Assembly: GCA_035764005.1 (NCBI GenBank)
Contig: DASTZZ010000021.1
Coordinates: 1-64,000 of the forward strand
DNA: 64,000 nucleotides
Direction of reading: 5' to 3'
Origin: Terriglobales bacterium
Lineage (GTDB): Bacteria; Acidobacteriota; Terriglobia; Terriglobales; Acidobacteriaceae
Positions within the stretch are counted from its first letter, which is position 1. Every line of letters starts with the position of its first letter. The notes beneath the pieces are model-generated. The model saw nothing but the letters and a program-made list of their open reading frames with translations, did not search any database and had not been told where the DNA came from. Both the position numbers and the translations under genes were made by a program. Shown here in pieces: positions 7,797-37,083 of this stretch.

Positions 7797-9341
7797 CTAA
7801 CTTATCCGCAGCTTGCGAAGCAATTCATCAACGCTCGCACGGGGGAATTGACCGGGCACAGCCTCTTCCCCGTCGTTCTCAACAACCACGTGGATGCCGG
7901 CGCCGGCCAGCAGATCGATCGCGCGCCTGTTCCAATTTGAAACAATTACAAGGTCGGAGACTGCTGAGCCGGCCGCATAGTTCTGAAGCACATCAAGAAT
8001 GGGATCGTTTGAAGAGAGGCGAACTACCAGGCCTGCATCTCTCGATCGGCTCTCGCCAGGTGCGTGCAGCGCCTCGACAATCATTCCGGCAGCGATGGTG
8101 TTATTGCTGTCGGGGTCAATCAGAATGAAGCTGCCTGTCCGACGGTTCTGCGCATACCCATCAAAAATAATCGTGCGATCAGCTTCAATCGCTACAGTCC
8201 CAATATCGTTCATGTTTAACGAGCGTGCCGAATCGGAACGCAATGAGTGAATGTCTAGCTTAGTTTCCACTTGAACCCGTGCACGCGTCATCTGGGACGT
8301 ATGTTTCAGGAGGTATTTTCGAGTACTGTCGAGCGGTTGCTCGGAGAACCAGATCAGTTGTGCACGAAGCGCCTGCGTAGTTTGCGGCGTATCCGACGAT
8401 GAAGCGAGAACGTCGCCACGACTGATGTCGATCTCGTCGCCGACGGTTAACGTGACAGATTGAGGTGCGCTGGCCGAGTGGAGTTCTCCATCGTAGGTCA
8501 CGATCGACTTCACACGCGTCCGTCGTCGCGACGGAAGGACGATAACTTCGTCGCCGACCGATACAGTTCCGGCAGCAATCTGTCCTGAGTATCCGCGGAA
8601 TTGACTGGTGCGCTGAACGAGTTGGACAGGCAAGCGGAACGGCTGGGAGTGCTCAGCTTTTTGCAGGTCTACCGACTCCAGATAATCGAGCAGAGCCGGC
8701 CCTTTAAACCACGGCGTGACGGAACTACGGTGGACGACATTGACACCCGAATTGGCGCTTACGGGAAAGAACTCAACAGTTTCAAAGTCAAAATCTTGAA
8801 GAGCGTCCAACAACTGTTTGCGTAACGAGAGAAAGACGGCTTCAGAGTACTCGACCAGGTCCATCTTGTTGATCAACACCACAAGATGGCGAATTCCAAG
8901 AAGTCCGATGATAAAAGCGTGTCGCTTTGATTGTGGCTGAATTCCTCGGCTTGCATCAACTAGTAAGATCGCGAGGTCGGCAGTCGACGCTCCGGTGGCC
9001 ATATTGCGCGTGTATTGCTCATGGCCAGGAGTATCGGCGAGAATGAATTTACGCTTTGCTGTGCTGAAATAACGATAGGCAACATCGATAGTGATGCCTT
9101 GCTCGCGTTCAGCACGCAGACCATCAGTTAGCAAGGCCAGTTCAAGGCCACCGCGGGAGGCACGTTTAACGGCGTGCAGTTGGTCCTCATAGACGCTCTG
9201 AGAGTCGTAGAGTAATCGGCCGAGCAGAGTAGATTTACCATCGTCCACACTGCCGGCGGTTACAAGACGCAGTAGGTCCTTCTGTTGCTCTGAATAGAGA
9301 AACTCTTCTGCAGTTAAAGCCGCCCTGGCAACTGTACTCAA
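7797..9341 (-). CDS. cysN: Sulfate adenylyltransferase large subunit (GTPase)
   Basis: GTPase subunit that couples GTP hydrolysis to APS formation by CysD in the cytoplasm. The G motifs are clear: GSVDDGKS at 30-37, DTPGH at 103-107 and NKMD at 158-161, followed by EF-Tu-like beta-barrel domains 2 and 3. The usual family end falls near residue 421 (AAGMI). A further stretch of about 93 residues follows that is neither the P-loop APS kinase of CysNC fusions nor anything I recognise; it reads as a small alpha/beta domain ([26 protein letters not shown]). The start codon overlaps the cysD stop by 4 bp, so the two are translationally coupled. It is the third gene of cysHDN, which a cysteine-codon attenuator is proposed to control. 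Confidence 0.94.
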
Positions 9342-10243
9342 AAGTACCCCGCTCTCTTCTTCAACTCCATCGAGCCATCCTGATCGTGATCAATGACACG
9401 GTTTTCTCGTTCCGACCGCCGGAAAGAGACGAGCTCCTCAATAATCTTCGGCAGGGTGTCCGCTTCTGAGCGTATCGCGCCGGTGCACGGACTGCATCCC
9501 AGCGATCGCATGCGGCACATTACGAGTTGCGGTGTTTCGCCTGGCAGCCGCGGAACGAACGACTGCTCGAGAGAGATCAACTGTTCGCCTCGCACAAGCA
9601 CCTGTCGCGACTTGGCAAAATACATCGGCACGAGAGGGATGTTTTCCTCATGGATGTACTGCCAAATGTCCATTTCAGTCCAGTTCGACAGTGGGAAGAC
9701 GCGTACGCTCTCTCCTGGACCAATACGGCTGTTATAGAGATTCCAGGGCTCGGGCCGCTGCCGCTTTGGGTCCCATTGTCCTTTGGCATCGCGGACCGAG
9801 TAGATGCGCTCCTTGGCGCGCGACCGCTCCTCGTCCCGACGGGCCCCGCCGAACGCGGCATCGAAGCCACCTTCACGTAGTGCATCAAGAAGCGATTGCG
9901 TTTTCAGCAGCTCGCAGCAACGCTGCGTGCCCACCTTAAACGGATTTGTCCCTGCATCGAGTGCGGCCTTATTTGTGTGCACGATCAGCTTCAGGCCAAG
10001 CTGTGCCGCCTGTCGGTCGCGGAATTCGATCATCTCGCGAAACTTGTAGCTGGTATCGATGTGCAGTAATGGGAATGGAATTTTTCCTGGATAAAAGGCT
10101 TTCTGCGCGATGCGCAGCATGACCGAAGAGTCCTTCCCAATCGAATACAGCATTACGGGTCGTTGAAATTCGGCGACGACCTCGCGAAAAATGTGAATAC
10201 TCTCGGCTTCCAACGCCTGCAGGTGAGTCAGTTTCGTGCTCAT
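9338..10243 (-). CDS. cysD: Sulfate adenylyltransferase small subunit
   Basis: PP-loop ATP pyrophosphatase that joins sulfate to AMP from ATP to give APS, working with CysN. The start at 10243 ([18 protein letters not shown]) gives 302 residues, the family's usual length; the longer reading frame runs back into cysH. The PP-loop SIGKDSS is at 34-40, the [15 protein letters not shown] block follows, and the C-terminal [14 protein letters not shown] block is present. The ATG overlaps the cysH stop codon (ATGA), and the gene overlaps cysN at the other end in the same way, giving a tightly coupled three-gene operon. Confidence 0.96.
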
Positions 10244-10977
10244 CGAGCTGCTCCTGCTGAACGCGACGGAACAAGCTTGGGGCCTTCTGCTGTTTGTACA
10301 ACGTGAAGTCCGCATTCTGTCTTCGCGAATCCCGACCAGCGGCCGGCGCGCGGATCTTCTCCTGGAAGCACAGCGCGCGTGCAATGTGTACAGCCGATAC
10401 TGGGGTATCCGCGGTCGTGCAAAGGGTTATAGGGAACATTGCGTGAATGGATGTATTCCCAAACTTGAATTTCTGTCCAGTCCGCGATCGGATTTAGCTT
10501 CACTAATCCGAACTTCGCATCCCACTCCAGCTTGCGAGCGTTCGCGCGCGTCGGCGACTGCTCGCGGCGAATGCCGGTAATCCAGGCGGAGGAAGCTTTG
10601 AGTCTTTGCGTCAGCGGCTCCACTTTGCGAATTTGGCAGCAGAGATCGGGCTGGGTTTTCCAAAGCTCATCGCCGAACTTGCGAGCCTGAGATTCTGGGG
10701 TTAATTGGGGACGAAGGCGTTCAACGCTGATGCCGTATTTTTCCTCAATCCTGGAGATTAGCTCGTAAGTTTCCGAAAAAAGGAAATCGGTGTCGAGAGT
10801 GAAGACAGCGAAAGGAGCGCCGATTCGGGAGACCACGTCGATCAGCACCACATCTTCGGCTCCGAAGCTAGAGGCTAATGCGGCTTTTTCTCCAAAGTCG
10901 CGCGCAGCCCAGGCAAGAAGCTCTTCCGCGCTCCATCCCTCTGCCGCGGCTTGCGCCTTAACTAAGCTCTCCGTCAT
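10240..10977 (-). CDS. cysH: Assimilatory adenylyl-sulfate (APS) reductase, CysH family
   Basis: Reduces activated sulfate to sulfite with thioredoxin as donor. It has 245 residues, with the adenylate-binding core [12 protein letters not shown] near 37-48 and LDTDFLF at 61-67. A Cys113-Cys114 pair (DLCCQIRK) and Cys196/Cys199 (GCTHC) match the four ligands of the [4Fe-4S] cluster seen in APS reductases and absent from PAPS reductases; the catalytic ECGLH motif has Cys222. APS rather than PAPS should therefore be the substrate, consistent with the absence of an APS kinase gene or domain here. It is first in cysHDN and is preceded by a 100-bp leader holding a strong terminator and a Cys-rich leader ORF (separate entries). 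No sulfite reductase lies in the window. Confidence 0.94.
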
Positions 10978-11000
10978 TTGTCACTCCCGGGCGACTCGCG

Positions 11001-11052
11001 CCCAAAACAAAACCCGCTCACTCGACGCTTACTTGCGTCTGGTGAGCGGGTT
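11001..11052 (-). terminator. Intrinsic terminator inside the cysH leader (attenuator 3:4 hairpin)
   Basis: Transcribed leftward, the RNA has an 11-bp perfect outer stem (11042-11052 with 11011-11021, AACCCGCTCAC and GTGAGCGGGTT) and a 5-bp inner stem (GACGC/GCGTC), then TTTTGTTTT. It lies between the leader ORF stop (11078) and the cysH start (10977), so it must be read through for cysHDN to be expressed. Part of its 5' arm, CCAGACGC (11042-11035), can instead pair with GCGTTCTGG (11102-11094) at the end of the leader ORF, with one bulged base. Confidence 0.88.
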
Positions 11053-11077
11053 CGGGATCTCGAAACTTATCCGGACT

Positions 11078-11164
11078 CTAAATCATTGCTTTGCCAGAAC
11101 GCAGCACAAGTGTCATCGCGCAACAACGACAACATGGCATCGCGTTCTGCAGGCGTTGATTCAT
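11078..11164 (-). CDS. Cysteine-rich leader peptide of cysHDN (candidate attenuator ORF)
   Basis: Short ORF of 28 codons starting ATG at 11164 and ending TAG at 11078. Residues 10-15 read P-C-C-R-C-C, coded TGT TGT CGT TGT TGC. Codons 6-8 contain CAGAACGC (region 1), complementary to GCGTTCTG (region 2) in codons 21-24, so the Cys codons sit in the loop of a 1:2 hairpin. Region 2 can alternatively pair with region 3 in the terminator. A ribosome stalled at the first Cys codons would cover region 1, free region 2 and prevent the terminator; one that reaches the stop would cover part of region 2 and allow it. There is no Shine-Dalgarno sequence, and a predicted promoter ends a few bases upstream, so the mRNA may be nearly leaderless. 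Translation is inferred, not shown. Confidence 0.75.
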   Translation of the reverse strand: MNQRLQNAMPCCRCCAMTLVLRSGKAMI

Positions 11165-11175
11165 CCGAGAAACTA

Positions 11176-11205
11176 TTAGTACATTGGTGTTTGATGAAGT
11201 GTCAA
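11176..11205 (-). promoter_or_regulatory. Predicted sigma-70 promoter of the cysHDN leader
   Basis: Reading leftward: TTGACA at 11205-11200, an 18-bp spacer, then TACTAA at 11181-11176 preceded by TG. The -10 is a weak match. The expected start lies near 11169, about 5 nt before the leader ATG. The permease promoter has the same 18-bp spacing and the same TGTACT word. Confidence 0.55.
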
Positions 11206-11298
11206 TCGAAAGCGTTGCGAACATTGCGCAAGCATGTTTCATATTGGCATCATCAGCAAATCAAATTTGTCCCATAGTCCAATTAAATTGCATCCCGC

Positions 11299-11328
11299 TT
11301 GACGTCTCGCGAATCTCTCCTGTACTTT
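11299..11328 (+). promoter_or_regulatory. Predicted sigma-70 promoter of the permease leader
   Basis: TTGACG at 11299-11304, an 18-bp spacer, then TACTTT at 11323-11328 preceded by TG. The expected start falls at about 11335, at or just before the leader ATG (11336), pointing to a leaderless or nearly leaderless transcript. The 93 bp between this -35 and that of the cys promoter (11206-11298) would hold any shared operator; I see only a short CAATT-A-AATTG palindrome at 11280-11290. Confidence 0.5.
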
Positions 11329-11335
11329 GGCTAGG

Positions 11336-11419
11336 ATGTCTAGTTCGACCTTACACATGGCTTGTCGATGCGCACTGTGCATCTGTACGTCGAAGTGTGG
11401 GTCGATGGAGGCGCCGTAG
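11336..11419 (+). CDS. Cysteine-rich leader peptide of the permease gene (candidate attenuator ORF)
   Basis: Short ORF of 27 codons, ATG 11336 to TAG 11417-11419, with five Cys at residues 10, 12, 15, 17 and 21 (ACRCALCIC then KCG). Region 1 is CGACC (11346-11350) plus CACA (11354-11357) in codons 4-7; it can pair with region 2, TGTGGGTCG (11396-11404, codons 21-23), with a 3-nt bulge. Region 2 is also a perfect 9-bp complement of CGACCCACA (11449-11457), the 5' arm of the terminator downstream. The geometry repeats that of the cysH leader: Cys codons follow region 1, and the stop codon is close enough for a terminating ribosome to mask region 2. No Shine-Dalgarno is visible. The peptide sequence differs from the cysH leader apart from its Cys content. 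Confidence 0.75.
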   Translation: MSSSTLHMACRCALCICTSKCGSMEAP

Positions 11420-11446
11420 TATCTAGGTAAGCGCATAGGTTTTGCC

Positions 11447-11484
11447 AACGACCCACAAGCGATTTGTGGGTCGTTTTGTTTTTG
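11447..11484 (+). terminator. Intrinsic terminator in the permease leader (attenuator 3:4 hairpin)
   Basis: A 12-bp perfect stem (AACGACCCACAA at 11447-11458 with TTGTGGGTCGTT at 11464-11475, 5-nt loop) followed by TTGTTTTT. It lies 28 bp past the leader-ORF stop and 42 bp before the permease ATG. This also excludes the longer permease reading frame from 11442, which would run through the hairpin. Confidence 0.9.
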
Positions 11485-11525
11485 GGCCACTTCCGCAGTT
11501 CACTCTAAAGAAAGACGCCGTAGAC

Positions 11526-12437
11526 ATGGAAGTCGTTCTCGGGTTTCTGATCGCAGCGACGGTCGGCATCACCGGCATCGGTGGCGGCAGTTTCACCACG
11601 CCCGCGCTGGTCCTGCTGATTGGACTTCCCGCGGGCGAAGCGGTTGGGACAGCGATGGTCTTCGCTGCTATCTTGCGATTGATCGCAGCGCCGTTCTACC
11701 TGGTGCGCCGGAGTGTTGACGCAAAATATCTACGTTTTCTCTTGATCGGTGCGGTACCTGGCCTGCTTCTCGGAACACTACTGCTCCGCCTGATGCGCAC
11801 TCGAGCATGGAGCCCGCTAGCCTTGCTGATTATCGGGTTGATGCTCACGATTTCTTCCGGGTTGACCTTTGTTCCACGACTCCGGCATCCGCATCTCACG
11901 CGCGAACGCGGCCGCTGGCTCTCGCTTCTTGCGCTGCCGATTGGCATCGAGACTGGATTCTCTTCTGCTGGAGCAGGCGCGCTTGGCAGCATTCTCCTAC
12001 TCAACTTTTCAGAACTGCCGGCGGCTACGGTGGTCGGGACGGATTTGCTTTTGGGAATCGTGCTTGCCGTTGTTGGCAGCATTTTTCATTTGAGTTGGGG
12101 ATCGATTAGTACCGCCTCACTTGTGCGACTGCTCGCGGGCGGAATTCCGGGTGTGCTCGTCGGCTGCGCTCTGGCGAAGCGAGTGCCGGCGCAAAAGCTC
12201 CGATTAGCCGTAGCCGCAGTGGCGGTTGTGCTCGGGCTGCAGTTGATCTGGATCGGTGGTTCGCCGCTGGTTCGAACAGAGCAAGCAAAGACGGTCGTGC
12301 ATCAAGGACCGAAGTCTTCAGAAACGGTTAAATCATCAGCATCAAACCTGCGCGCCGACGCTTCCCCGGGGGTGTTGCTCGAGTCCTTCTACTCCCTCCC
12401 AATCGGCGTCACTTTCATTGAGCGCTGTTGTCGATAA
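11526..12437 (+). CDS. TauE/SafE (TSUP) family inner-membrane permease
   Basis: Predicted multi-pass transporter of about 303 residues from the ATG at 11526; codons upstream of it lie in the terminator hairpin. The N-terminus has the family's Gly-rich entry segment (GITGIGGGSFTTPALVLL) and eight or so hydrophobic segments follow, with a second family-like Gly-rich repeat (SAGAGALGSILLL). Members move sulfite, sulfonates, thiosulfate or other organic anions, with direction varying by protein. A soluble tail of about 50 residues ends ERCCR at the stop codon. It is preceded by a Cys-rich leader ORF and attenuator and is divergent from cysHDN, so uptake or export of an inorganic or organic sulfur anion is the best reading. 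The receptor gene starts 60 bp downstream. Confidence 0.85.
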   Translation: MEVVLGFLIAATVGITGIGGGSFTTPALVLLIGLPAGEAVGTAMVFAAILRLIAAPFYLVRRSVDAKYLRFLLIGAVPGLLLGTLLLRLMRTRAWSPLALLIIGLMLTISSGLTFVPRLRHPHLTRERGRWLSLLALPIGIETGFSSAGAGALGSILLLNFSELPAATVVGTDLLLGIVLAVVGSIFHLSWGSISTASLVRLLAGGIPGVLVGCALAKRVPAQKLRLAVAAVAVVLGLQLIWIGGSPLVRTEQAKTVVHQGPKSSETVKSSASNLRADASPGVLLESFYSLPIGVTFIERCCR

Positions 12438-37008: not shown

Positions 37009-37083
37009 GGCGCTATCGTCTAGGGGTTAGGACGGAAGATTCTCAATCTTCAAACCCGGGTTCGATTCCCGGTAGCGCTACCA
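37009..37083 (+). tRNA. tRNA-Glu (anticodon CTC)
   Basis: 75 nt including encoded CCA. Acceptor GGCGCTA pairs with TAGCGCT (G1-T72 wobble). The anticodon stem GAAGA/TCTTC encloses TTCTCAA, giving CTC; the T arm is CCGGG-TTCGATT-CCCGG. D-loop GGGGTTAGG. Decodes GAG. Confidence 0.96.

Follow-up and report, generated by a model that had tools for sequence, protein, structure and literature searches.

The window, i.e. the whole 64-kb stretch of DNA that was analysed, carries on its forward strand a TauE/SafE (TSUP) permease gene, preceded by a short leader ORF rich in Cys codons and by an intrinsic terminator. A cysH operon with a Cys leader and terminator of its own lies on the reverse strand. 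In the following list regions 1 to 4 are the putative pairing segments of the permease leader, and 1:2, 2:3 and 3:4 are the pairings between them.

11299 to 11328, forward strand: candidate sigma-70 promoter, TTGACG (11299-11304), 18 nt, TACTTT (11323-11328), with a predicted start at about 11335-11336
11336 to 11419, forward strand: leader ORF of 27 codons with five Cys codons, from translation; alternative ATG at 11357
11346 to 11357, forward strand: region 1 (CGACC, 11346-11350, plus CACA, 11354-11357), putative protector strand; 1:2 duplex of -16.3 kcal/mol
11363 to 11386, forward strand: putative sensor Cys codons 10, 12, 15 and 17 (TGT, TGC, TGC, TGT), from sequence and translation
11396 to 11404, forward strand: region 2 (TGTGGGTCG), putative antiterminator strand, codons 21-23; perfect complement of 11449-11457
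11447 to 11475, forward strand: intrinsic terminator hairpin (regions 3 and 4), 12 bp, -18.4 kcal/mol, z -5.6; a second scan agrees
11474 to 11483, forward strand: U-tract of the terminator, from sequence and terminator scan
11526 to 12437, forward strand: TauE/SafE (TSUP) permease gene, PF01925, E 1.3e-34, 120 bits (cut-off 32.6)
11078 to 11164, reverse strand: Cys leader of the cysH operon (MNQRLQNAMPCCRCCAMTLVLRSGKAMI); 2:3 p 0.265, not significant
11010 to 11053, reverse strand: terminator of the cysH leader, from terminator scan
10240 to 10977, reverse strand: cysH (PAPS/APS reductase), from its ORF, a frame check and cysH homologs; name from sequence and family knowledge
9338 to 10243, reverse strand: cysD, after cysH; frame checked, name from sequence and family knowledge
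7797 to 9341, reverse strand: cysN, after cysD; frame checked, name from sequence and family knowledge

The leader ORF (11336-11419) translates into MSSSTLHMACRCALCICTSKCGSMEAP, followed by the stop codon, with Cys at codons 10, 12, 15, 17 and 21. The sequence-only reading had described a 27-codon ORF with five Cys codons ahead of a 12-bp terminator, which is confirmed base by base at 11299-11526. At least five in-frame Cys codons arise in 272 of 20000 shuffles of the ORF and four Cys within 8 codons in 99 of 20000, and of all short ATG ORFs in the window (751 in 64 kb) just two possess four Cys within eight codons, namely the permease leader and the cysH leader. All five Cys codons attributed to the leader are present; the fifth (codon 21), however, lies inside region 2 and, according to the folding described below, cannot be a sensor codon. 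The entire permease leader folds with a z of -3.5 against shuffles (1 of 200 as good). At Rfam gathering scores no family (T-box, S-box or others) matches the leader, and the sole match in the window is a tRNA at 37009.

The terminator (11447-11475) reads AACGACCCACAA-GCGAT-TTGTGGGTCGTT, then TTGTTTTT; none of 200 shuffles folds equally well, and a gap of 50 nt separates its end from the permease start, with which it does not overlap. Region 2 had been read as a perfect 9-bp complement of the terminator 5' arm, and the match of 11396-11404 to 11449-11457 is exact; when the leader is dinucleotide-shuffled 20000 times, a perfect 9-mer complement to this arm occurs 81 times. The window 2:3 pairing has a z of -4.4 (0 of 200 shuffles). 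Region 2 is also able to pair with region 1, as had been noticed, the duplex listed above having a p of 0.045 against shuffles.

Folding was computed at equilibrium, on partial transcripts, for the RNA beyond the ribosome, whose footprint was taken to be 15 nt. The succession of 1:2, 2:3 and 3:4 predicted from the letters emerges once ribosome position is included, with two caveats at equilibrium. With the A-site at Cys codons 10, 12, 15 or 17, P(2:3) is 1.0 once arm 3 has emerged, whereas an A-site on codon 21 or on the stop codon gives a P(2:3) of 0 and a P(3:4) of 1.0. Region 2 is fully accessible when the ribosome stalls at codons 10, 12 or 15, and about two thirds accessible when it stalls at codon 17. 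As soon as arm 4 is complete, 3:4 beats 2:3 at equilibrium, stalled ribosome included (0.85-0.997), so that antitermination must be kinetic. In the RNA without a ribosome P(1:2) is 1.0 at transcript ends 11440 and 11484, and both 1:2 and 3:4 are present in the full leader; at transcript end 11460 the equilibrium favours 2:3 over 1:2 (0.91 vs 0.09), and the protector role of 1:2, if real, is therefore kinetic too.

The promoter of the window leader is a weak candidate: a promoter scan gives TTGACG-16-TGTACT (11321-11326) a score of 8.8 (p 0.07 vs shuffles), and a stricter scan reports none ahead of this leader. Since the leader ATG follows TACTTT by only 7 nt, the leader is possibly leaderless. 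Among 53 leaders of the class (their choice is given below) 37 have a sigma-70 promoter at p<=0.05. Of 81 leaders examined, 66 have a good promoter score, and in 57 of these the distance from the -10 to the first in-frame ATG is <=18 nt; in 31 of the 57 near-leaderless leaders, whose starts are predicted, it is within 10 nt. An SD-like 4-mer is found in the 12 nt before the leader ATG in 1 of the 57, vs 14 of 35 in the same stretch before downstream-gene starts. The proximity to the -10 and the near-absence of SD-like motifs make a leaderless or near-leaderless translation start likely, as predicted from sequence.

The genome possesses a third Cys leader (MNPLCITSMCCCRVCVRSCVEVHS) with a terminator, ahead of a sulfite reductase gene (8205-8279 of locus L236, i.e. 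22204-22278 of contig C7); its 2:3 pairing is not significant (p 0.205). The cysH leader of the window pairs far better with the arm of the permease leader than with its own. No Cys leader is found in the stretch around the SulP gene of the source genome. The permease leader had been regarded as a "second, independent" attenuator, which needs qualification: the genome contains at least three Cys leaders, this one included, and relatives have many; it may have an origin of its own or have diverged from a common element.

A search of 299 genomes of the class with a related permease gives a match at E<=1e-20 in 47, and 30 loci were taken. A Cys-cluster ORF with terminator lies directly upstream of the permease gene in 17 of them, and in a further six the Cys leader is one gene upstream, ahead of ATP sulfurylase. 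The search for Cys leaders ahead of TSUP genes in relatives that had been proposed with the reading thus finds them directly upstream or one gene away in 23 of 30 loci. One of these, L090 (a weak match followed by a TSUP permease frame), is counted in the 23 and is left out of the detector and pairing statistics. Seven loci (L080, L083, L085-L089) have no Cys leader in the stretch searched.

The detector was run on sixty regions that surround cysH or permease genes; counting the two strands, they amount to 1.98 Mb and hold 192 terminators. A Cys-cluster ORF precedes 61 of these terminators, while eleven other residues give 0-10 (His 3, Tyr 0, Phe 3, Asn 3, Asp 3, Gln 8, Lys 10, Glu 10, Trp 2, Met 8, Ile 6); as the regions were selected for sulfur genes, this is a contrast between residues and not a genome-wide frequency. 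A stricter cluster (>=4 in 10 codons) gives 45 for Cys vs 0-4 for the other residues. Grouped by BLASTP, with family names taken from representatives, the genes after the 61 matches are 17 TSUP permeases (window included), 11 sulfite reductases, 7 ATP sulfurylases, 9 CysD/CysH (two matches ahead of one gene), 4 siroheme synthases and 12 singletons, one match having no ORF behind it. The arrangement thus recurs ahead of sulfate-assimilation genes in relatives. The singletons comprise one ThiS-like gene, one ABC substrate-binding protein and ten others; seven of these ten were removed as spurious, as was the match with no ORF behind it, and three stayed in the set. Three detector matches fall in one 13-kb region of genome G023 (213-311 of L091 and ORFs ending at 738 and 10344), and one of them, with eight Cys codons, precedes the ThiS-like sulfur-carrier gene. 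At 3041-3157 of L115 a Cys leader and its terminator precede the gene for an NMT1-like ABC substrate-binding protein that may import organosulfur compounds. The clusters contain 3-8 Cys codons, whose number and spacing vary widely while the Cys codons persist. In the leaders Cys is encoded by TGT 199 times and by TGC 45 times, compared with 9 TGT and 34 TGC in eleven window genes.

With cysH as query, the best 80 loci of the match list were taken as named records. Among these, 10 of 11 acidobacterial records have a Cys leader with terminator (the exception is L221), as against 6 of 69 non-acidobacterial ones. The six are the Anaerolineae L224, L226 and L227, with Cys runs, the Chloroflexota record L210, and L165 and L219, the latter two matches being taken as spurious. 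The Cys-run leaders of the Anaerolineae records (e.g. MICICCAACCCQ...) are accompanied by terminators, and the system may extend beyond Acidobacteria.

The pairing set consists of 53 leaders, i.e. the 61 detector matches minus eight removed by judgement (L098+, L104+10687, L104-13091, L109-11713, L111+10557, L123-8162, L139 and L148) on account of overlap with long coding frames or of no visible sulfur gene after them; L116, L125 and L126 remain in the set despite a chosen long frame that looks out of frame. Because codon 21 belongs to region 2, codon 17 was chosen manually as the last sensor codon of the window permease leader. The 2:3 pairing between post-Cys stretch and terminator 5' arm reaches p<=0.05 vs shuffles in 29 of 53 leaders, including 16 of the 17 permease leaders, and 1:2 does so in 24 of 53. 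For 28 further leaders unused in the design of the test, drawn from the named records, the source genome and the wider regions around permease homologs (L165, L210, L219 and L224 left out), 2:3 is significant in 14 and 1:2 in only 5. The 2:3 test is therefore not significant in about half of the leaders (24 of 53 and 14 of 28). When arms are swapped among the 53 leaders, none of 10000 reassignments pairs as well on average as the true arms, and when the leaders are treated as nine lineage-by-gene groups, none of the 362880 possible assignments but the true one reaches the real mean, the own arm being the best in 6 of 9 groups only. The post-Cys stretch of the window permease leader ranks its own arm first of 53. 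From the arm swaps it follows that the antiterminator strand tracks the terminator on average, with sequences differing between lineages.

The permease gene starts with the ATG at 11526, a correction to an earlier reading. Its product extends past the C-terminal end of the PF01925 match by about 60 residues (window 12250-12437), the last of which are IERCCR. A structure search finds no relative of the window permease with a solved structure. Five genomes of the same genus contain no permease match, and cysH has only a weak partial match in one of them; the near-absence of the stretch 10240-12437 (permease plus cysH) may reflect patchy loss or horizontal gain. A family search of 398 genomes gives 108 with a permease match at E<=1e-40, the nearest permeases being 58-65% identical to that of the window. 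The permease lies directly behind cysH on the same strand in all six best homologs of a first set, and, as seen in upstream sequences, four of the five genomes nearest to the window in the larger set likewise have it behind cysH. The copy of the fifth (ortholog L241, 65% identity) is not behind cysH within the 460 bases read, and it has neither Cys leader nor terminator within 1.5 kb and no same-strand Cys leader in the 15-kb region.

In 13 of 20 wider regions around homologs a same-strand Cys leader with terminator is located 3.4-3.5 kb upstream of the permease, a spacing that equals the length of a cysD-cysN-cysH operon as judged from coordinates; the other 7 regions show no Cys leader. By this comparison the window permease stands out in owning a leader instead of riding in the cysH operon. 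The sequence-only reading had named permease homologs that keep the terminator and lack the Cys leader as evidence against it. None was found in the permease loci without a Cys leader when positions 800-1520 were scanned for terminators. Across 27 homologous loci, weak hairpins that lack a Cys leader occur twice: in L247 the hairpin is about 1.3 kb upstream and in L261 it overlaps the start of the gene, so that both differ in position from the window terminator. Since the closest homologous permeases sit directly behind cysH on the same strand, uptake fits better than export, and the permease is probably an importer of sulfate or another oxidised sulfur anion.

The stretch 11299-11483 very probably controls the TSUP permease by ribosome-mediated transcription attenuation of the trp/his type, with cysteine as the specific signal. 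The transcript would start at or just before the leader AUG and be translated immediately. When Cys-tRNA(Cys) is scarce, the ribosome would stall at Cys codons 10-17 and cover region 1, leaving region 2 to pair with the emerging region 3, which would keep the terminator from forming and let transcription run on into the permease gene. With ample Cys-tRNA, the ribosome would reach the stop codon and cover region 2, 3:4 would form and transcription would end at about 11480. In the absence of translation 1:2 should form first, followed by termination. Attenuation by Cys-tRNA supply would most likely serve to raise sulfur uptake under cysteine limitation in vivo, perhaps from a near-leaderless transcript.

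Copper-sensing Cys-rich leader peptides are known, and the peptide of the window leader has a C-x-C spacing, so a Cys-rich arrest peptide that senses the metal or redox state via its thiols, instead of Cys-tRNA supply, might be considered. It is very improbable, given that Cys number and spacing vary widely while Cys codons persist, that downstream genes mostly belong to sulfate assimilation, that the leaders prefer TGT, the rarer Cys codon in the eleven window genes, and that the post-Cys stretch follows the terminator arm. A chance meeting of a spurious ORF with a terminator has hardly any probability left: single features of the window leader reach modest p values only, but the arrangement recurs with residue and gene specificity, and the residue control (61 vs 0-10 of 192 terminators) excludes chance as an account of that recurrence.

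If the Cys attenuation were translational or Rho-dependent, as it is in mycobacteria, stalling on the polycysteine uORF would alter downstream translation or access of Rho, and the hairpin would be incidental. The predicted near-leaderless starts resemble the mycobacterial ones (57 of 66, with an SD-like 4-mer in 1 of 57), and Cys leaders lacking terminators are recorded in the accessible part of Seliverstov 2005 (PMC1262725). We nevertheless consider this mechanism improbable, because a strong terminator follows the leader and ends 50 nt before the permease start, and its 5' arm fits the post-Cys codons better than the arms of other lineages do. Somewhat less improbable, though still unlikely, is export of sulfite or another toxic sulfur compound by the permease, with the attenuator serving detoxification. 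The Pfam family name, "Sulfite exporter TauE/SafE", speaks for export; against it, the logic of the attenuator switches the gene on at cysteine scarcity, the permease of relatives adjoins cysH or stands behind ATP sulfurylase, and CysZ of C. glutamicum, itself a TSUP protein, transports sulfate and is encoded in an assimilatory operon of this kind, according to the accessible part of PMC5840216.

In excerpts of the literature the polycysteine leaderless sORFs of mycobacteria are described as acting by translational attenuation (Canestrari 2020, cited in the accessible parts of PMC9031893 and PMC13236596), and attenuation by Cys leaders had been proposed there earlier (PMC4633059, in part accessible); the accessible part of PMC1262725 lists Cys leaders, with no conserved terminator seen there. 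For Acidobacteria, attenuators are mostly without assigned function in the accessible part of PMC2965389, and that of PMC4833913 treats leader genes with no mention of cysteine. Among the literature matches listed, which include few subscription journals, no Cys attenuators are described in Acidobacteria or ahead of TSUP genes.

Our data support a terminator-type Cys attenuation, likely near-leaderless, that would be reused at sulfate-assimilation genes of this acidobacterial class. Chances are about even that the class runs its sulfate-assimilation regulon (permease, ATP sulfurylase, CysD/N/H, sulfite reductase and siroheme synthase) via many separate leaderless or near-leaderless Cys attenuators and no shared regulator, pairing segments drifting while Cys codons and four-segment logic stay. 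If so, the first ribosome would load as soon as the RNA emerges, and this would be a leaderless, terminator-coupled attenuation, of which no description was found in the literature searched. Cysteine supply would account for a set of acidobacterial attenuators at sulfur genes and define a testable regulon, and a role in sulfur import is suggested for a TSUP clade labelled exporter by Pfam. Near-leaderless Cys leaders would have a second case beside mycobacteria.

Classical trp, his and leu leader attenuators follow a four-segment logic, with the stop codon placed to cover region 2. The window leader shares this logic and the position of its stop codon, and differs in amino acid, taxon and the likely near-leaderless start. 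As in C. glutamicum CysZ, with the proteins compared by description only, a TSUP permease is tied to sulfate assimilation genes, whereas no Cys leader is mentioned for CysZ in the accessible part of PMC5840216. The window leader resembles the mycobacterial sORFs in the Cys run before sulfur genes, in a predicted start at or near the transcript end and in an expected response to Cys-tRNA supply; in contrast to them (translational, with no conserved terminator), the window leader possesses an intrinsic terminator and a matching antiterminator. In uORFC-8-2 of the Rhodobacterales, for which ribosome-mediated attenuation is inferred in the accessible part of PMC8632094, Cys codons in a short uORF are likewise followed by an intrinsic terminator. 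That element, compared by description only, belongs to Alphaproteobacteria and precedes the synthetase gene cysS with two tandem Cys codons, whereas the acidobacterial leaders, with 3-8 Cys codons, precede sulfate assimilation or permease genes, the next gene in the window being the TSUP permease.
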